A DNA stretch of 42,910 nt, taken from positions 1-42,910 of IMG/VR virus record IMGVR_UViG_3300025326_000082; one strand, given 5' to 3'. A program made the position numbers and the translations under genes. This stretch comes from a virus. Under the pieces are notes generated by a model, which was given only the letters and a program-made list of their open reading frames with translations, was not told the origin of the DNA and ran no database searches. Below, one piece after another: positions 34,105 through 40,539 of this stretch. Each line of letters begins with the position of its first letter. Positions within the stretch are counted from its first letter, which is position 1.

Positions 34105-35115
34105 TTAATCACGAACAGAGATCAATTTACCGCGGCCTCTGCGAAGATTGATCACACGAGCAAGTGACACCGCCAACTCACCAGTGATAAGCAGGGTCCC
34201 GGAAATCGTTGGGCTGACAACAACCCCATGAATAACAAGCGCAGGGACCGACGGCTCCAACGTCGTTGCTTGGAGTGTATCGATCACCTGCAGGTTGTCG
34301 GGCGAGATAAGGAACCCGACGGTTGCGACGCTATCACTGACAGCAGAGGCAATTTGAAGCGAAGAGACATTCAGCCCGATAGCTGAGATGTCTCCGTTAA
34401 GAAGAGCGATGGTCACCGCCATGCTATTCACAGGGATGAAGTCAACGGAAACAACAGGCACTTGAAGTACCGGTGCGATTACCGCTGAATCCACGTCAAG
34501 AGTAATGCCGGTTGATAAGGTGGTAGATGCAAGAGCAATGGTCACCGCCATGCTATTCGCAGCAATATCGTACTGTGAAGAAAGTGACGACGAAGAAACA
34601 GCTGTATCGCTGACCAACCCGGAAGCAATAAGCAAAACGTCCAACGCCGTTGCACCAAGAGTGGTGCTAATGACCAGGGAGTCTGGTGTGATTGTGTAGG
34701 CATGCGTAAGCGTTGAAGCATCAACAACAGAAGTTACATCAAGTGAATTTGGCGTTATTGGAGTGGCGGTATCCAGAGTTGTAGTTGCAAGGGCACAGAC
34801 CACTGCCGCATTGTTTGGCGTGATTGTGTACTCATGGGTAAGTGACGTTGTTTGCTCAGCACAGACCACCGCCATGTTGTCCGGCGTGACGCTGGCCTCA
34901 GATGAAACCTCCCACGGAATAAGACGAATGAAATCCAGGTCCATGTCATTCTGATAGCGTGTTGAGCCGGCGGTGATAGTTTGCTTAAAGCGAATCTTAC
35001 CACTGGTGCTGGTCTTCGCGCTAAGGTTGACACCCTCGTTGCGGTAGCCCACCGCAGCCATGTTTACAGATGTTGACCACGCTTCGACGTAGCCAGATCC
35101 ATCATCAATCTCCAC
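34105..35115 (-). CDS. C-terminal half of the split M14 protein: MAM-like end plus tandem beta repeats
   Basis: 336 residues from GTG 35115, overlapping the preceding TAG. Residues 1-68 (VEIDDGSGYVEAWSTS, ending DMDLDFIRLIP) complete a MAM-like jelly roll whose first half is the last about 90 residues of the preceding M14 gene. Residues about 70-300 are about ten imperfect repeats of roughly 24 residues (ITPDNMAVVCA, ITPNSLDVTSV, ITPDSLVISTT), probably beta-solenoid or stacked hairpins for extension. No good ribosome site precedes GTG 35115. So either a frameshifted single gene or a coupled second subunit. Confidence 0.65.
   Translation of the reverse strand: MEIDDGSGYVEAWSTSVNMAAVGYRNEGVNLSAKTSTSGKIRFKQTITAGSTRYQNDMDLDFIRLIPWEVSSEASVTPDNMAVVCAEQTTSLTHEYTITPNNAAVVCALATTTLDTATPITPNSLDVTSVVDASTLTHAYTITPDSLVISTTLGATALDVLLIASGLVSDTAVSSSSLSSQYDIAANSMAVTIALASTTLSTGITLDVDSAVIAPVLQVPVVSVDFIPVNSMAVTIALLNGDISAIGLNVSSLQIASAVSDSVATVGFLISPDNLQVIDTLQATTLEPSVPALVIHGVVVSPTISGTLLITGELAVSLARVINLRRGRGKLISVRD
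34403..34558 (-). repeat. Near-identical DNA repeats inside the beta-repeat gene
   Basis: A 27-nt stretch beginning at 34403 recurs at 34532 with one mismatch (AGAGCRATGGTCACCGCCAT, then GCTATTC), 129 nt apart. These copies encode the NSMAVTIAL repeat twice. The near identity suggests recent tandem duplication or recombination in the repeat region, which can change repeat number. Confidence 0.75.
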
Positions 35116-36662
35116 TAGAACGTGCTGCTGGTACAGCCGAAGCGAGCGTAAGAGAACTGCATTTCTGCGTAAAGGGTAAGGTTGACGTTTTCACGCACAA
35201 GATCGAAGACCGTTCCCTCCGCAACTGGGGCACCGCTTGTTCCTGCCTCAGTGAAGACACGGTACGTTCCAGAACCTTCAACACCGAAGTCGTTGCCTGT
35301 GTTTGTGGTAGGTGTTGCGGCGTTGCTGCGGGTCCAAGCAGTTCCCGTCACCCCAGTGGACCATGAGCCAAGCCCACTCGTGAATGACTCAGAAACCGTG
35401 TTTGCGTAATCGATGTTTGTGCCATCCCACGAGTCAAGGAGGCTTTGATCGTACATCTCGGCAACTGCTTTTGCGACGTTGGCACCAATTTCCTTGCATC
35501 GTGCAATGGTGTTACGCTCATCCCGAACTTCGATGGTCATGCACGCGATGCCATTGCGTTTTACGTTGAAGTATTCAATGGTGGTACCTGTTACGCCAAC
35601 CGCCACCGCATTTAGCTCAGAGTCCGCCGCAATGAGGATATCACTGATGGCAGTTAAGTTACTTTGTGTTGAGTAGTAATTCCAATACGCATTGCCATCG
35701 GTATCATTTAACTTTGTGGCATCGTGGAAGTCGATATGGCCCACCACATTATGCAGGAAGACCCCATGTTGCTCGTCAAGAATTTCCTGCCATTCTTTTA
35801 CAGTGAGAATAGAGCCATCAGCATCAGCCCATTCACGATTCATATCCGCGCTGGTAGTTGTGGAGTTCAAGGCCTCATTGCGCCTGAATCCAAGCTCACT
35901 GCCACCCTTCGCTAAGAGTGGGTAGCAATAAATGTTGATGTTCTCGCGAGCTGCGATGCCCTTTGTGGTGGAGGTAGTTAGCCACTCATCCATAAAGCCT
36001 TGGAGCATGTGGAAGCCATGCCACTCACCTACGTGTGTGCCGCACTGAATGACAAACTCGCGTTTCGCGTTAATTCCAGAAGGCACCACGCTGTCATCAC
36101 CCACCCGAAAGCCGTATGAAGGCAGGTTCGAGACGGTGCGTGAGAGGTCATCGCGGTACGTGCCGCCATTACCACAGACGTAGGCGCCAATAGCCAATCG
36201 CACGCGTGGAATGAGGTCATCATGGATGAGAGATGAATAGTTGGTTTCAAGTTGCTGCATCCACGCCAGACAACGGAGGCGATGGTGCGGTGGCACAGAA
36301 GCATAGTAGCGGGTTGCGACGTCTGGCGTGTCGGTAAACGTCATGAAGCCGCCAGAGTCATCGTAGCTGGATATCTTCACCCAGGTATCAACACCATCAA
36401 CAGTGTCGCAACGCCATGGCCCGTCATAGGTGGTTTCGTAGACGGAGTCTGTCTCTTTCCCAGTGAGGTCTACGCTAAATGAAAGGGTCTTGCCATTAAC
36501 GTCTGAGAGACCAACAATCCACTGCTGCCAGGTACTTTCACTAGGATCCGCGTTGTAAACTTTGACATTGATCGTCGGGGTAGACGTATCTGGGTTGGTA
36601 ATGGTGCTGGTGGACGTATTTAAATTAGAGCCTGGAAAATCAGTTACGTACGCGGTGGTCAC
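35115..36662 (-). CDS. M14 zinc carboxypeptidase (CCP-like) with truncated MAM-like domain
   Basis: 515 residues from GTG 36662 (GGGGA upstream). Residues 1-125: beta N-domain (TWQQWIVGL, DTWVKISSY) ending in RYYASVPP, like the N-domain of cytosolic carboxypeptidases. Residues 125-405: M14 catalytic domain with zinc motif HVGE (His210, Glu213), MNREW (Asn275-Arg276), DFHD (zinc His313) and TIEVRDE (catalytic Glu378); all key residues are present. Residues 425-515: start of a MAM-like jelly roll (SFTSGLGSWSTG...LTLYAEMQFSYARFG) that breaks off at a TAG. It should hydrolyse a C-terminal residue of a peptide, perhaps peptidoglycan or a surface protein. The position between TerS and TerL is odd. 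Confidence 0.85.
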   Translation of the reverse strand: MTTAYVTDFPGSNLNTSTSTITNPDTSTPTINVKVYNADPSESTWQQWIVGLSDVNGKTLSFSVDLTGKETDSVYETTYDGPWRCDTVDGVDTWVKISSYDDSGGFMTFTDTPDVATRYYASVPPHHRLRCLAWMQQLETNYSSLIHDDLIPRVRLAIGAYVCGNGGTYRDDLSRTVSNLPSYGFRVGDDSVVPSGINAKREFVIQCGTHVGEWHGFHMLQGFMDEWLTTSTTKGIAARENINIYCYPLLAKGGSELGFRRNEALNSTTTSADMNREWADADGSILTVKEWQEILDEQHGVFLHNVVGHIDFHDATKLNDTDGNAYWNYYSTQSNLTAISDILIAADSELNAVAVGVTGTTIEYFNVKRNGIACMTIEVRDERNTIARCKEIGANVAKAVAEMYDQSLLDSWDGTNIDYANTVSESFTSGLGSWSTGVTGTAWTRSNAATPTTNTGNDFGVEGSGTYRVFTEAGTSGAPVAEGTVFDLVRENVNLTLYAEMQFSYARFGCTSSTF

Positions 36663-37077: not shown

Positions 37078-37291
37078 CGGCAGATCTCCATCTAAGGTGT
37101 GATGTATGGAACACTTTGACTGTTGGAATTTCACGGAGCTGAGTTCCGAGTTCCAATGGGGTCGATTCTAATACTTTTTCCGAAGAGGCGCTGAACAAGG
37201 TTCCAAATTTTGCCCGTAAAGTCAGTTTATCAACATTAAGTTGTTGTTTTTCAAGGCGATTTAGTGCCCGGTCGATAATCTGAAGCAACAT
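36998..37291 (-). CDS. Possible short gene upstream of TerS
   Basis: From ATG 37291 a 97-residue frame is open. Its first about 55 residues read like protein (ALNRLEKQQLNVDKLTLRAK), but the rest is in a shadow frame of TerS and is low complexity. No ribosome site is seen before the ATG. It contains one copy of the 20-nt direct repeat. Kept only as a weak candidate; it may be leader sequence. Confidence 0.25.
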   Translation of the reverse strand: MLLQIIDRALNRLEKQQLNVDKLTLRAKFGTLFSASSEKVLESTPLELGTQLREIPTVKVFHTSHLRWRSAGGSSHKKTCRGQAAQNKASKATREWT

Positions 37292-37324
37292 TGAGAGCAA
37301 GTACTAAGTTGTTGTTTTTAAAGG
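37237..37324. repeat. Direct repeat pair upstream of TerS
   Basis: TAAGTTGTTGTTTTTCAAGG (37237-37256) and TAAGTTGTTGTTTTTAAAGG (37305-37324): 19 of 20 identical, 68 bp start to start. They lie in the divergent control region just upstream of TerS, so they could be terminase (pac) sites or repressor/activator sites. Confidence 0.7.
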
Positions 37325-37455
37325 ATAAATGGATGTTTTTGCTTCAATGCTCTTTATTTTTATACTTCTTCTAGGAAAAGAAAGAGTAGAATATATATAT
37401 AATAGGTAATACATGTTAATATGCCCCATATAAATACATTAGACTGGATAATTCG

Positions 37456-37480
37456 TTTTTAGCCTATAGTGGGCTAAAAA
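37456..37480. promoter_or_regulatory. Palindrome, candidate operator
   Basis: TTTTTAGCC (37456-37464), 7-nt centre TATAGTG, GGCTAAAAA (37472-37480). Nine-base perfect arms. T-run before and A-run after make it a poor terminator in either direction, so a protein-binding site is more likely. Confidence 0.45.
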
Positions 37481-37561
37481 ATTCTGAATCGAGAGCATAG
37501 AACGTGGAGCAACGCAAAAACAATCAAAAACCAAGAGCAGAGATGCCTTAGTCAATGATTC

Positions 37562-37579
37562 TTTGATATTTTTATCAAA
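37562..37579. promoter_or_regulatory. Palindrome just before the regulator gene, candidate operator
   Basis: TTTGATA (37562-37568), centre TTTT, TATCAAA (37573-37579), seven-base perfect arms, ending 22 bp before ATG 37602. Size and position fit an operator for self-regulation of the downstream gene. Confidence 0.45.
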
Positions 37580-37601
37580 TTAACCTTGAAGGAAAAATTT
37601 T

Positions 37602-38135
37602 ATGTCCGCCGAATCTGAGGTATTTACCAATATAAGGTCGCAGTTTATCAATGACATTCAAATTATTCAAAAGAGTTTGGAAAAAGACCCCTTAATTGCA
37701 AGGCGCTTATTAAAACAGCATAAAGAAGCCATCGTTAAGTTCATTGATAAACTTATTCTCGATGATTTAGTGAAAAATCGAGGCAATTCTTTAAGGCGAA
37801 AAAAAGCACTTGAACGTTGGGCGGACCCCGATTTTCGAGCGCGAATGACTGAGGTTCAACGCGCAAGGCGTGTGCGCGAAGAAGCTGGTGGAACCCTCCA
37901 AATGTATTTGGTAAATTCAAATGAATTTGGCGAGTCTGAGTTAAAGGGAGTTGAGGCAACAAAGCTTTTGCGCGTAACACGAGCCGCACTTGATGCCGCG
38001 ATCAGCCGTGGAAATGGAAAGGCCGTTTACCGTGGAAACTTCTTTAATGCCGATATTGAGTCGTTGGTAACCGTAGTCAAGGTCGTTAAGTCCACCAAAG
38101 AACCTATTCCCCTCATAAAGAAGAAAGGAAAATAA
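37602..38135 (+). CDS. Hypothetical, possibly DNA-binding (NUMOD-like) protein
   Basis: 177 residues, first gene of the plus block. Residues 1-60 helical, 66-95 a basic segment (RRKKALERWADPDFRARMTE) recalling the NUMOD3-type motif of homing endonucleases, 110-150 an HTH-like stretch (EATKLLRVTRAALDAAIS followed by YRGNFF) recalling NUMOD1. No nuclease motif, so more likely a regulator than an endonuclease. AAGGA precedes ATG 37602. Downstream lies the structured non-coding element. Role inferred only. Confidence 0.6.
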   Translation: MSAESEVFTNIRSQFINDIQIIQKSLEKDPLIARRLLKQHKEAIVKFIDKLILDDLVKNRGNSLRRKKALERWADPDFRARMTEVQRARRVREEAGGTLQMYLVNSNEFGESELKGVEATKLLRVTRAALDAAISRGNGKAVYRGNFFNADIESLVTVVKVVKSTKEPIPLIKKKGK

Positions 38136-38146
38136 ATCAAGGTTTA

Positions 38147-38380
38147 CAGGAGACGGCGATCTATCTATAGTTTCTTTCGCTGCTGCTCTTACCGGCCGCG
38201 TCTTGCACACCGCCATCTCCTGGTTTCCAGGTCTCGGTTGCTCGTCAAGCGTCCTCAGCAGACCTTGGTCGGTAGGAGCAGCAGCCTTCTTTCCCCACCC
38301 CTAGTGCTGAGGTATGGTGGCGGGCCGCGAGCTGAGCGCGGGTGACGAGCAGACCCTCGCGGGTCGTTATATAACCGAGG
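38147..38380 (+). ncRNA. Highly structured non-coding element with interlocking helices
   Basis: The 301 nt between the regulator and the primase-helicase hold many long complementary arms. (1) 38147-38158 with 38211-38222, 11 of 12 pairs. (2) GCTGCTGCTCTTACCGGCC (38179-38197) with 38267-38285, 19 pairs, the two non-Watson-Crick ones being G-U. (3) CTCGGTT (38233-38239) with AACCGAG (38373-38379), continued by GCTCGTCA (38240-38247) with TGACGAGC (38343-38350). (4) CCTCAGCA (38253-38260) with TGCTGAGG (38305-38312). (5) Hairpins CCTGG/CCAGG (38219-38231), CCGCG/CGCGG (38325-38341) and GACCC/GGGTC (38352-38365). Helix 2 crosses 1, 3 and 4, so it forms pseudoknots or an alternative fold. G-U-tolerant pairing suggests RNA, but a replication origin on DNA is also possible. 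Confidence 0.6.
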
Positions 38381-38436
38381 ACAACCCACATGGTCATTTA
38401 CTGGACCTGTGTTGCCCATTGTATGAGGCGCATAGG

Positions 38437-40539
38437 ATGACAAGCCCCACAAAAAAGAAAATAGCAAAAAGACCAGCCGGTGGTGAGGCGTACGACCTAG
38501 CGCTTGAGAAAATTACGAGCTCTGGGCTTGACCTTCACGACTTTGAGATTCTTGGATTCGAGATCCTCGACGCCAACGTGGTCCCCACCCTTCATAAGAG
38601 CTTCCGAGCTCGCCACGCGCTGCGCATCAACTACTACCACCCCATCACCCGGAAGCCAATGGTGCCTTGGCCGTCATGGCCTGCGTTCTATCGGCTTCGC
38701 TATCTTGCCCAGAAAGCGGTGCAGGAGTTCTCCGACGTCACGGAGAAGGACAAGAAGAAAAAAGACCCGAAGTACGTGCAGGAGCCTGACAGCGGCATCT
38801 GTGCATACTTTCCCATGAACGTCGATTGGACAGACATCCTCAAGGACGCGGACACGCCTCTTATCATCACTGAAGGTGAGTTCAAGGCGGCAAAGGCGTG
38901 CAAGGAGGGCTTTTATACCATCGGGCTTGGTGGCGTGTATTCCTTCCGCAGCTCGAAGCTTGGTGTTCCCTTCCTGAAGGAGCTGGAAGAGGTTAACTGG
39001 GTCAAGCGCTACGTCTACATTGTCTATGACTCTGACCTACGCAGCAACCCACATGTGTGCGATGCTCTCAACGAGCTGGCGGAACAGCTGCTTGAACGGG
39101 GTGCGCTACCTCATGTGGTCTTTCTGCCAGATGTGGTGGATGAGGGCAAGACGGGTCTGGATGATTATCTGGTAAGCCTGTCGAACCCCACGGAGATGTT
39201 TGCCCAGTTCATCCGCGACACAGCACAGCCCTTAACCCTGGCACGAACCCTATTTGACCTGAACAAGAAGGTCACGTACGTTCGGAACCCGGGGATGATC
39301 ATCAGCAAGGTCGATGGAATGAAGATGTCGCCCAATGACTTCTCAGGCCATGCCTTCAGCCACCAGGAGCACTCAGAGCAGCTCATTAAATCGGATGGGT
39401 CTATCAGCATGAAGGCGGTGCCAGCGGCGCAGGCGTGGCTTCGGTGGCCGCTACGTCATGAGGTTAGCCGCATCACCTACGCGCCTGGCAAGCCTCAGAT
39501 TACCGCACAGAACGAGTGGAACAGCTGGAATGGCTGGGGCTGCACACCTCGGAAGGGAGACATTGGGCCATTCCTTGAGCTCCTCAAGCATCTCTTTACC
39601 GGTGCTGAGCGTGACGCCATGGCGTGGTTCCTGAAATGGTTGGCCTACCCCATTCAGTATCCTGGAACGAAGCTCTTCACCTCCGTGCTCTTTCATGGTA
39701 TCCATCACGGGACCGGGAAGTCCCTGATTGGCTACACCATGCAGAAGATCTACGGCGAGAACTTCACTGAGATTAAGGAAAAAGACCTTCACGGCAACTT
39801 TAACGAGTGGGCGGAGAACAAGCAGTTTATCCTCGGGGACGACGTTACCGGGTCCGACAAGCGCCAGGACAACGAGATGTTGAAGAACCTCATAACCCAG
39901 CGGATGCTACGGCTCAACCCGAAGTTCATTCGCAGCTACACCGTCCCAGACTGCATCAACTACTATTTCACCTCCAACCAGCCAGATACCTTCTTTCTCG
40001 AGGACCACGATCGTCGCGGCTTCATCCATGAGGTTCTTGTTGGTCCGCTTGACGAGTCATTCTACATGGACTACGTGCTGTGGCTCGATACCACGGGTGG
40101 CCCATCGGTCTTTGACTATCTTCTGAAGATAGACCTCAGTGACTTCAACCCATCGGCGCCTGCCTTCATGACGTCGGCGAAGCAGCGGATGATTAGCGAT
40201 GGCAAGAGTGACCTTGGCTCATGGGTACAGCAGCTGAAGGACAACCCAGTGAACATCCTGAAGATGGGGTCCATCCCACTGCGCTCCGACTTCTACACGA
40301 ATAAGCAGCTGCTCGCCATGTACGACCCGGAAGGCAAGACGAAGGTCACCGCCAACGGCCTTGGGCGTGAGCTCAAGCGCGCCGGGTTCCGCCAGGCGAT
40401 TGACGGCCGCCAGATTCGCTGGGCAGGTGGGGCTGAACGGCTCTATTGCGTGCGGAACCAGGCGTCATGGGCAAATGCCAGTGAATCGCAGATCGCGAAG
40501 CATTTGAATGAGACATCGAAAGGCCTTAAGCGGAAATAA
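38437..40539 (+). CDS. Primase-helicase (DUF3854 TOPRIM-like plus DUF5906/SF3-like helicase)
   Basis: 700 residues from ATG 38437 (TGAGG, 8-nt spacing; the frame is open further up to 38314 but runs into the structured element). Residues about 60-260: DUF3854/TOPRIM-like domain with PLIITEGEFKAAKA (about 140-153), GLGGVYSF and VYIVYDSD. Residues about 390-560: helicase with Walker A HHGTGKS (about 422-428), Walker B FILGDD (about 463), sensor YYFTSNQPD (about 508) and arginine finger DRRGF. A C-terminal winged-helix-like region follows. It unwinds and primes at the phage origin. Base composition is visibly richer in G and C than its flanks, so a separate origin of the gene is possible. Confidence 0.85.
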   Translation: MTSPTKKKIAKRPAGGEAYDLALEKITSSGLDLHDFEILGFEILDANVVPTLHKSFRARHALRINYYHPITRKPMVPWPSWPAFYRLRYLAQKAVQEFSDVTEKDKKKKDPKYVQEPDSGICAYFPMNVDWTDILKDADTPLIITEGEFKAAKACKEGFYTIGLGGVYSFRSSKLGVPFLKELEEVNWVKRYVYIVYDSDLRSNPHVCDALNELAEQLLERGALPHVVFLPDVVDEGKTGLDDYLVSLSNPTEMFAQFIRDTAQPLTLARTLFDLNKKVTYVRNPGMIISKVDGMKMSPNDFSGHAFSHQEHSEQLIKSDGSISMKAVPAAQAWLRWPLRHEVSRITYAPGKPQITAQNEWNSWNGWGCTPRKGDIGPFLELLKHLFTGAERDAMAWFLKWLAYPIQYPGTKLFTSVLFHGIHHGTGKSLIGYTMQKIYGENFTEIKEKDLHGNFNEWAENKQFILGDDVTGSDKRQDNEMLKNLITQRMLRLNPKFIRSYTVPDCINYYFTSNQPDTFFLEDHDRRGFIHEVLVGPLDESFYMDYVLWLDTTGGPSVFDYLLKIDLSDFNPSAPAFMTSAKQRMISDGKSDLGSWVQQLKDNPVNILKMGSIPLRSDFYTNKQLLAMYDPEGKTKVTANGLGRELKRAGFRQAIDGRQIRWAGGAERLYCVRNQASWANASESQIAKHLNETSKGLKRK

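Follow-up and report, generated by a model that had tools for sequence, protein, structure and literature searches.

A candidate structured RNA with a Shine-Dalgarno-bearing pseudoknot in the leader of a phage replication primase operon

The viral DNA analysed here (the window, 42,910 nucleotides, positions 1 to 42,910 of IMG/VR record IMGVR_UViG_3300025326_000082) carries, upstream of its replicative primase-helicase gene, what comparison with its relatives strongly supports as an uncatalogued family of structured RNA, associated with the replication primase in a single group of phages. On the same comparative evidence its probable function, which we favour with reasonable confidence, is that of a cis-acting 5' leader controlling translation of the replication operon by hiding a Shine-Dalgarno (SD) sequence in a pseudoknot. 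The element occupies the position of a 5' untranslated region, lies on the same strand as the gene it would control and has a promoter of its own, and the SD of the first ORF falls in a conserved, sequence-specific helix.

The noncoding gap concerned extends from the stop codon of a gene for a 177-amino acid protein (37602-38135) to the primase start at 38437. The longest call of the primase ORF begins at 38314, inside the RNA, and the true start is probably 38437. The features recognized are:

38143-38171, + strand: sigma70-like promoter TTTACA-17-TATAGT, the -10 box ending 7 nt before P1
38179-38197, + strand: P1, 5' strand (inverted repeat), the inferred RNA 5' end being at about 38178-38179
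38219-38231, + strand: hairpin H1, CCUGG-UUU-CCAGG, with UCUCC just 5' (direct reading; the equivalent hairpin covaries in relatives)
38232-38238, + strand: P2b, 5' strand, partner of the SD region 38374-38380
38239-38247, + strand: P2a, 5' strand, within the P1 loop (permutation test of P2)
38253-38259, + strand: CCUCAGC of hairpin C, unchanged across the aligned relatives and able to form kissing pairs with loops A and B
38267-38285, + strand: P1, 3' strand (inverted repeat)
38295-38320, + strand: hairpin A, stem 38295-38299/38316-38320 and loop GCUGAGG 38306-38312 (the stem covaries in relatives)
38325-38341, + strand: hairpin B, CCGCG/CGCGG with loop AGCUGAG (the stem covaries in relatives)
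38343-38351, + strand: P2a, 3' strand (permutation test of P2)
38374-38380, + strand: P2b, 3' strand, overlapping the SD GAGGA at 38377-38381
38390-38440, + strand: putative leader ORF of 16 codons, MVIYWTCVAHCMRRIG (by direct reading only, relatives not confirming it)
38437-40539, + strand: replicative primase-helicase of 700 amino acids, DUF3854 + DUF5906 (domain matches)

The original prediction, made from this one sequence, was of a 19-bp helix (38179-38197 with 38267-38285) crossed by other helices. The 19-bp helix, our P1, was recovered directly as an inverted repeat whose remaining pairs are G-U, and the crossing helices likewise appeared as inverted repeats; the window holds one of 21 nt (81%) at 38239-38259/38331-38351 and one of 12 nt at 38147-38158/38211-38222. 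The latter had been counted as part of the structure and was removed from the RNA because its first arm sits in the 17-nt spacer between TTTACA and TATAGT, upstream of the inferred 5' end and outside the conserved structure. The end proposed for the element, 38380, also had to be revised, as it extends to the SD (38377-38381) and the leader ORF (38390-38440). A long-range repeat (38103-38117/38422-38436) was discarded; it starts upstream of the promoter. None of 200 dinucleotide shuffles folds as well as the core (38140-38300, 161 nt; z -4.2). The folding energy of the whole 302-nt stretch is ordinary (z -1.3), so that energy alone is insufficient to settle the structure; the relatives did so.

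Neither a Pfam or PHROG match nor a relative was found for the gene at 37602-38135; the G+C content at 37201-37800 is 0.33, by comparison with approximately 0.50 for the record, so this region may be a recent insertion. Elsewhere in the window (35115-36662, - strand) is a gene for a 515-amino acid protein with a match to zinc carboxypeptidases (M14), adjoining one for a 336-amino acid protein without a match, both located between a small terminase-like gene and other packaging genes.

The -10 box lies 5-9 nt before P1 in 37 of 40 elements, and 6-7 nt before it in most. Since the box is phased to P1 the RNA should begin there, and we infer a transcription start at about the first base of P1.

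Primases of the DUF3854-DUF5906 type that are 50-52% identical to that of the window are found in Pseudoxanthomonas phage PW916, Stenotrophomonas phage AXL3 and a metagenomic phage, each with a noncoding gap of the same layout upstream of the gene. As a DNA query the stretch found no similarity match among phage records because of divergence, the window being at most 49% identical to any aligned relative. Viral contigs contained no exact match to the P1 arm, nor any match with the primase alone or the upstream gene alone as query. With an alignment of the four primase proteins as the query 80 IMG/VR loci were fetched, over half of which display TTTAC-N-TAxxxT, a long helix strand, CCTCAGC and then one or two copies of GCTGAG. 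Covariance models were constructed from nine close sequences (R1) and from 35 sequences with the window left out of training (R2). In a search of 408 kb R2 scored 25.3 bits at 38182-38353 of the window (E 9e-4), and over the whole record (E 9e-5) it revealed no second site.

The element is present at E ≤0.01 in all 46 phage sources searched, including the isolates AXL3 and PW916; one further match at this threshold was antisense and spurious. Clustering at 80% identity places the 47 aligned matches in 34 groups; the element is single-copy in 28 of the 29 records searched. A pattern scan of viral contigs returned 53 stretches, of which 32 were confirmed by the model, and among the pattern matches listed for bacterial genomes none matched R2. 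Within the sequences scanned, the element thus appears restricted to this phage group. A bacterial locus with a weak match to a model R3 (L191), antisense to a long coding frame and without a primase, was judged to be a chance occurrence. Five loci (L045, L050, L051, L052 and L073) carry shortened forms which keep P1 and CCUCAGC and are without hairpins A and B.

Compensatory substitutions, which the original prediction called for in relatives, occur far more often than in shuffled controls, and the structure and its conservation are well established at this comparative level. In the 35- and 47-sequence alignments, which were fitted to the model and therefore lean towards the structure, 95% and 92% of cells are paired, with 300 double changes against 74 shuffled and 495 against 149, respectively; the covariation scores are 0.735 (0.192 shuffled, 0.06-0.09 when slid) and 0.797 (0.199 shuffled), with slid scores of about 0.1 or less for both. 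A nine-sequence MAFFT alignment fitted to no model contains 24 double changes against 7.4 shuffled. Within P1, double changes are seen in relatives at 11 of 12 pairs.

The cells that are not Watson-Crick comprise 58 G-U and 12 A-C, and the + strand is therefore the RNA. This excess and the phasing of the promoter to the first helix do not support the DNA origin suggested at the outset. Such a replication origin, or a primer RNA whose transcript primes or loads the adjacent primase-helicase, would suit an element that has a promoter, is single-copy and adjoins the primase-helicase gene wherever downstream sequence exists. Conservation nevertheless tracks RNA pairing, and P2 (below) goes with the SD of the next ORF, whichever that is, an inserted gene included. 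No iterons or direct-repeat array of note were found in 37900-38700, an absence still compatible with an origin. Overall we regard an origin or primer as very unlikely.

In the helix P2 the P1-loop strand just before CCUCAGC pairs with the stretch after hairpin B, thereby crossing P1. It was assessed by comparing the best contiguous helix of each sequence with those formed when partners were swapped between unrelated sequences; true and swapped partners were poorly resolved by RNA duplex energies that allowed free internal loops, and clearly resolved by contiguous helices. For 20 unrelated representatives the sum for own partners is -249.5, compared with -142.3 for swapped ones (sd 25.9), and none of 20,000 permutations was as good. 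The helix of the window (UUGCUCGUCA/UGACGAGCAG) was matched or bettered in one of 62 swaps. Its sequence in three relatives is UCCUUCUUGUCA/UGACAAGAAGGA (L053), GGUCUACGUCA/UGACGUAGACC (L059) and AUCUCCGGU/ACCGGAGAU (L015).

Sixteen of the 17 recognizable SDs of first ORFs lie in a helix with the strand before CCUCAGC, and among nine representatives none of 20,000 permutations with swapped partners covered the SD as well. The pairing of P2 is weak in L014 and L002; a strong SD is not recognizable in L002, L004, L014 and L085, and L039 is without a convincing SD helix. P2 is not clear among the shortened forms (L045, L050-L052, L073), two of which (L045 and L050) have a UCCU next to the loop that might pair with the SD directly. 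Most relatives also carry, 5' of H1, the motif UCUCC (38216-38220 in the window), which is complementary to an SD and may provide a second strand for hiding it.

The SD covered in the window is that of the putative leader ORF, and control of the primase therefore needs coupling. Translational coupling is suggested by the overlap of the leader ORF's TGA with the primase ATG as ATGA. A comparable small ORF can be read directly in L013. Of 26 loci checked, 25 have the primase downstream; at the remaining one the sequence beyond the element ends after only 183 nt. At four loci (L034, L040, L046 and L066) an inserted small gene separates the RNA from the primase, and it is the SD of the inserted gene that is covered. 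The inserted genes of L066 and L040 are HNH-like, that of L066 matching HNH weakly and under the Pfam cut-off, and those of L034 and L046 are of another type. Possibly these are homing endonucleases which took over the SD of the leader.

The CCUCAGC motif occurs in every tabulated element, having served as the anchor for finding most of them, and is retained in the matches aligned by covariance model too. Loop A forms 6-7 bp with it in most relatives and loop B 7-11 bp; in the window the order is reversed, with 7 bp for A and 6 bp for B. Since A and B both display GCUGAG(G), only one at a time could pair with CCUCAGC. The loops vary mainly by A-to-G changes, which keep the pairing with U, and the base next outward of the kissing loop, which forms C/G in some lineages and U/A in others, is consistent with pairing to loop B. 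Together with covariation and the P2 permutations, the two competing partners strongly support the original prediction of a regulatory RNA or switch with a pseudoknot or exclusive folds. The leader might be a bistable kissing-loop switch, in which CCUCAGC would pair with A once A is transcribed and then be captured by B, setting P2 and the SD on or off. We consider this doubtful; if true, it would be a new kind of timer or sensor, its tuning governed by how strongly each of two near-identical loops pairs relative to the other.

An element with its own promoter, in which a single loop can pair with two target copies, also recalls a discrete trans-acting small RNA of the antisense or immunity kind, such as phage P4 CI or P1 C4 (Rfam RF01695), whose exposed CCUCAGC loop would pair with GCUGAG targets, including those of its own leader. 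In P4 the CI RNA is positioned before the primase operon and has a loop complementary to two sites, and the element described here shares both properties. A sub-threshold C4 match was obtained on L015 (14.5 bits against a gathering cut-off of 45, E 2.9), and the leader ORF of the window is preceded by a GACCC-GGGTC hairpin with a short run rich in T after it. In most relatives, by contrast, the structure reaches to about 20 nt from the start codon without a terminator, and both GCUGAG copies reside in cis, in conserved, covarying hairpins 3' of the loop on the same molecule. P2, moreover, is a separate covarying helix tied to the SD, and the C4 match remains below threshold, all of which makes a trans-acting RNA unlikely in our view.

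We therefore return to the cis-acting leader and its probable operation. The stretch would be transcribed as the 5' leader of the replication-operon mRNA and would fold into P1, crossed by P2 to form the pseudoknot, with the CCUCAGC hairpin loop inside the P1 loop. With P2 closed the SD of the first ORF would be held in a helix, and translation of the primase would be low, either directly or through the coupled leader ORF; were P2 to open in the cell, translation would proceed. The signal setting the state would most likely be a protein of the replication machinery such as the primase, or alternatively the passing of the kissing loop from A to B during transcription. Autoregulation by the primase or another replication protein appears to be the likeliest trigger, and is proposed because T4 gp32 and gp43 repress their own mRNAs (PMC3014915). 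Simple SD hiding would not require so elaborate a fold.

A ligand-sensing riboswitch with translational output would likewise place the SD in the switching helix. Its predicted pocket would be made up of the conserved unpaired CCUCAGCAAG, ACCUUU and UCUCC, stretches which are highly conserved in an otherwise divergent RNA, and kissing loops occur in known aptamers. The known Rfam riboswitch classes are without a match and, within what was searched, the element is found only before the phage replication operon, and we judge this alternative decidedly unlikely, even though sequence comparison does not tell it apart from a protein-controlled leader.

As recommended with the original prediction, the window and 19 relatives were compared with Rfam 15, resulting in no matches at or above the gathering threshold and, below it, only weak ones far under the cut-off. 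The earlier failure to match tmRNA also stands, as ARAGORN finds no tRNA or tmRNA in the stretch. A literature search found no description of this element, and the AXL3 paper mentions neither a promoter nor a noncoding element. The occurrence of the element in the cultured phages AXL3 and PW916 opens it to testing. A case as widespread and ornate as this would illustrate how the timing of replication in lytic phages may be set at the level of RNA, and it offers a natural competition between kissing loops for study.

Topologically, with P1 crossed by P2, one hairpin inside (P3) and one outside (P4), the RNA resembles the nested pseudoknot of self-cleaving HDV-like ribozymes, whose helix order is P1, P2 5', P3, P1 3', P4, P2 3'. 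These ribozymes include the phage theta ribozymes (PMC10879173). The element differs in having no match to the HDV families in Rfam, a longer P1 (8-20 bp rather than 7), two hairpins replacing P4, and a conserved loop pairing that is loop-to-loop. Since P1 starts at the inferred transcription start, HDV-type cleavage would have no leader to remove, and we consider a ribozyme extremely improbable.

A functional parallel is the operator of ribosomal protein S15 (rpsO), a bacterial gene, which is a small fold not known to have kissing loops. There a pseudoknot forms part of the translational operator of the protein's own mRNA (PMC3014915), as is proposed for the present element; no sequence relation between the two was found. 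Among phages there is a likeness to T4 gene 32, where a leader pseudoknot on the mRNA of a replication protein serves in the translational repression of that gene, and a 2010 review named the T4-type gene 32 as the sole viral pseudoknot known in translational autoregulation (PMC3014915). The gene 32 pseudoknot is small and lies 67 nt upstream. It nucleates the cooperative binding of protein to a ribosome-binding site that is A+U-rich and unstructured. The element described here, by contrast, spans approximately 170-200 nt and has the SD itself in the pseudoknot helix, and its binding protein is only supposed. Control of translation by leader pseudoknots is already known; it is unusual for two nearly equal kissing partners to compete for one loop beside an SD-bearing pseudoknot helix.
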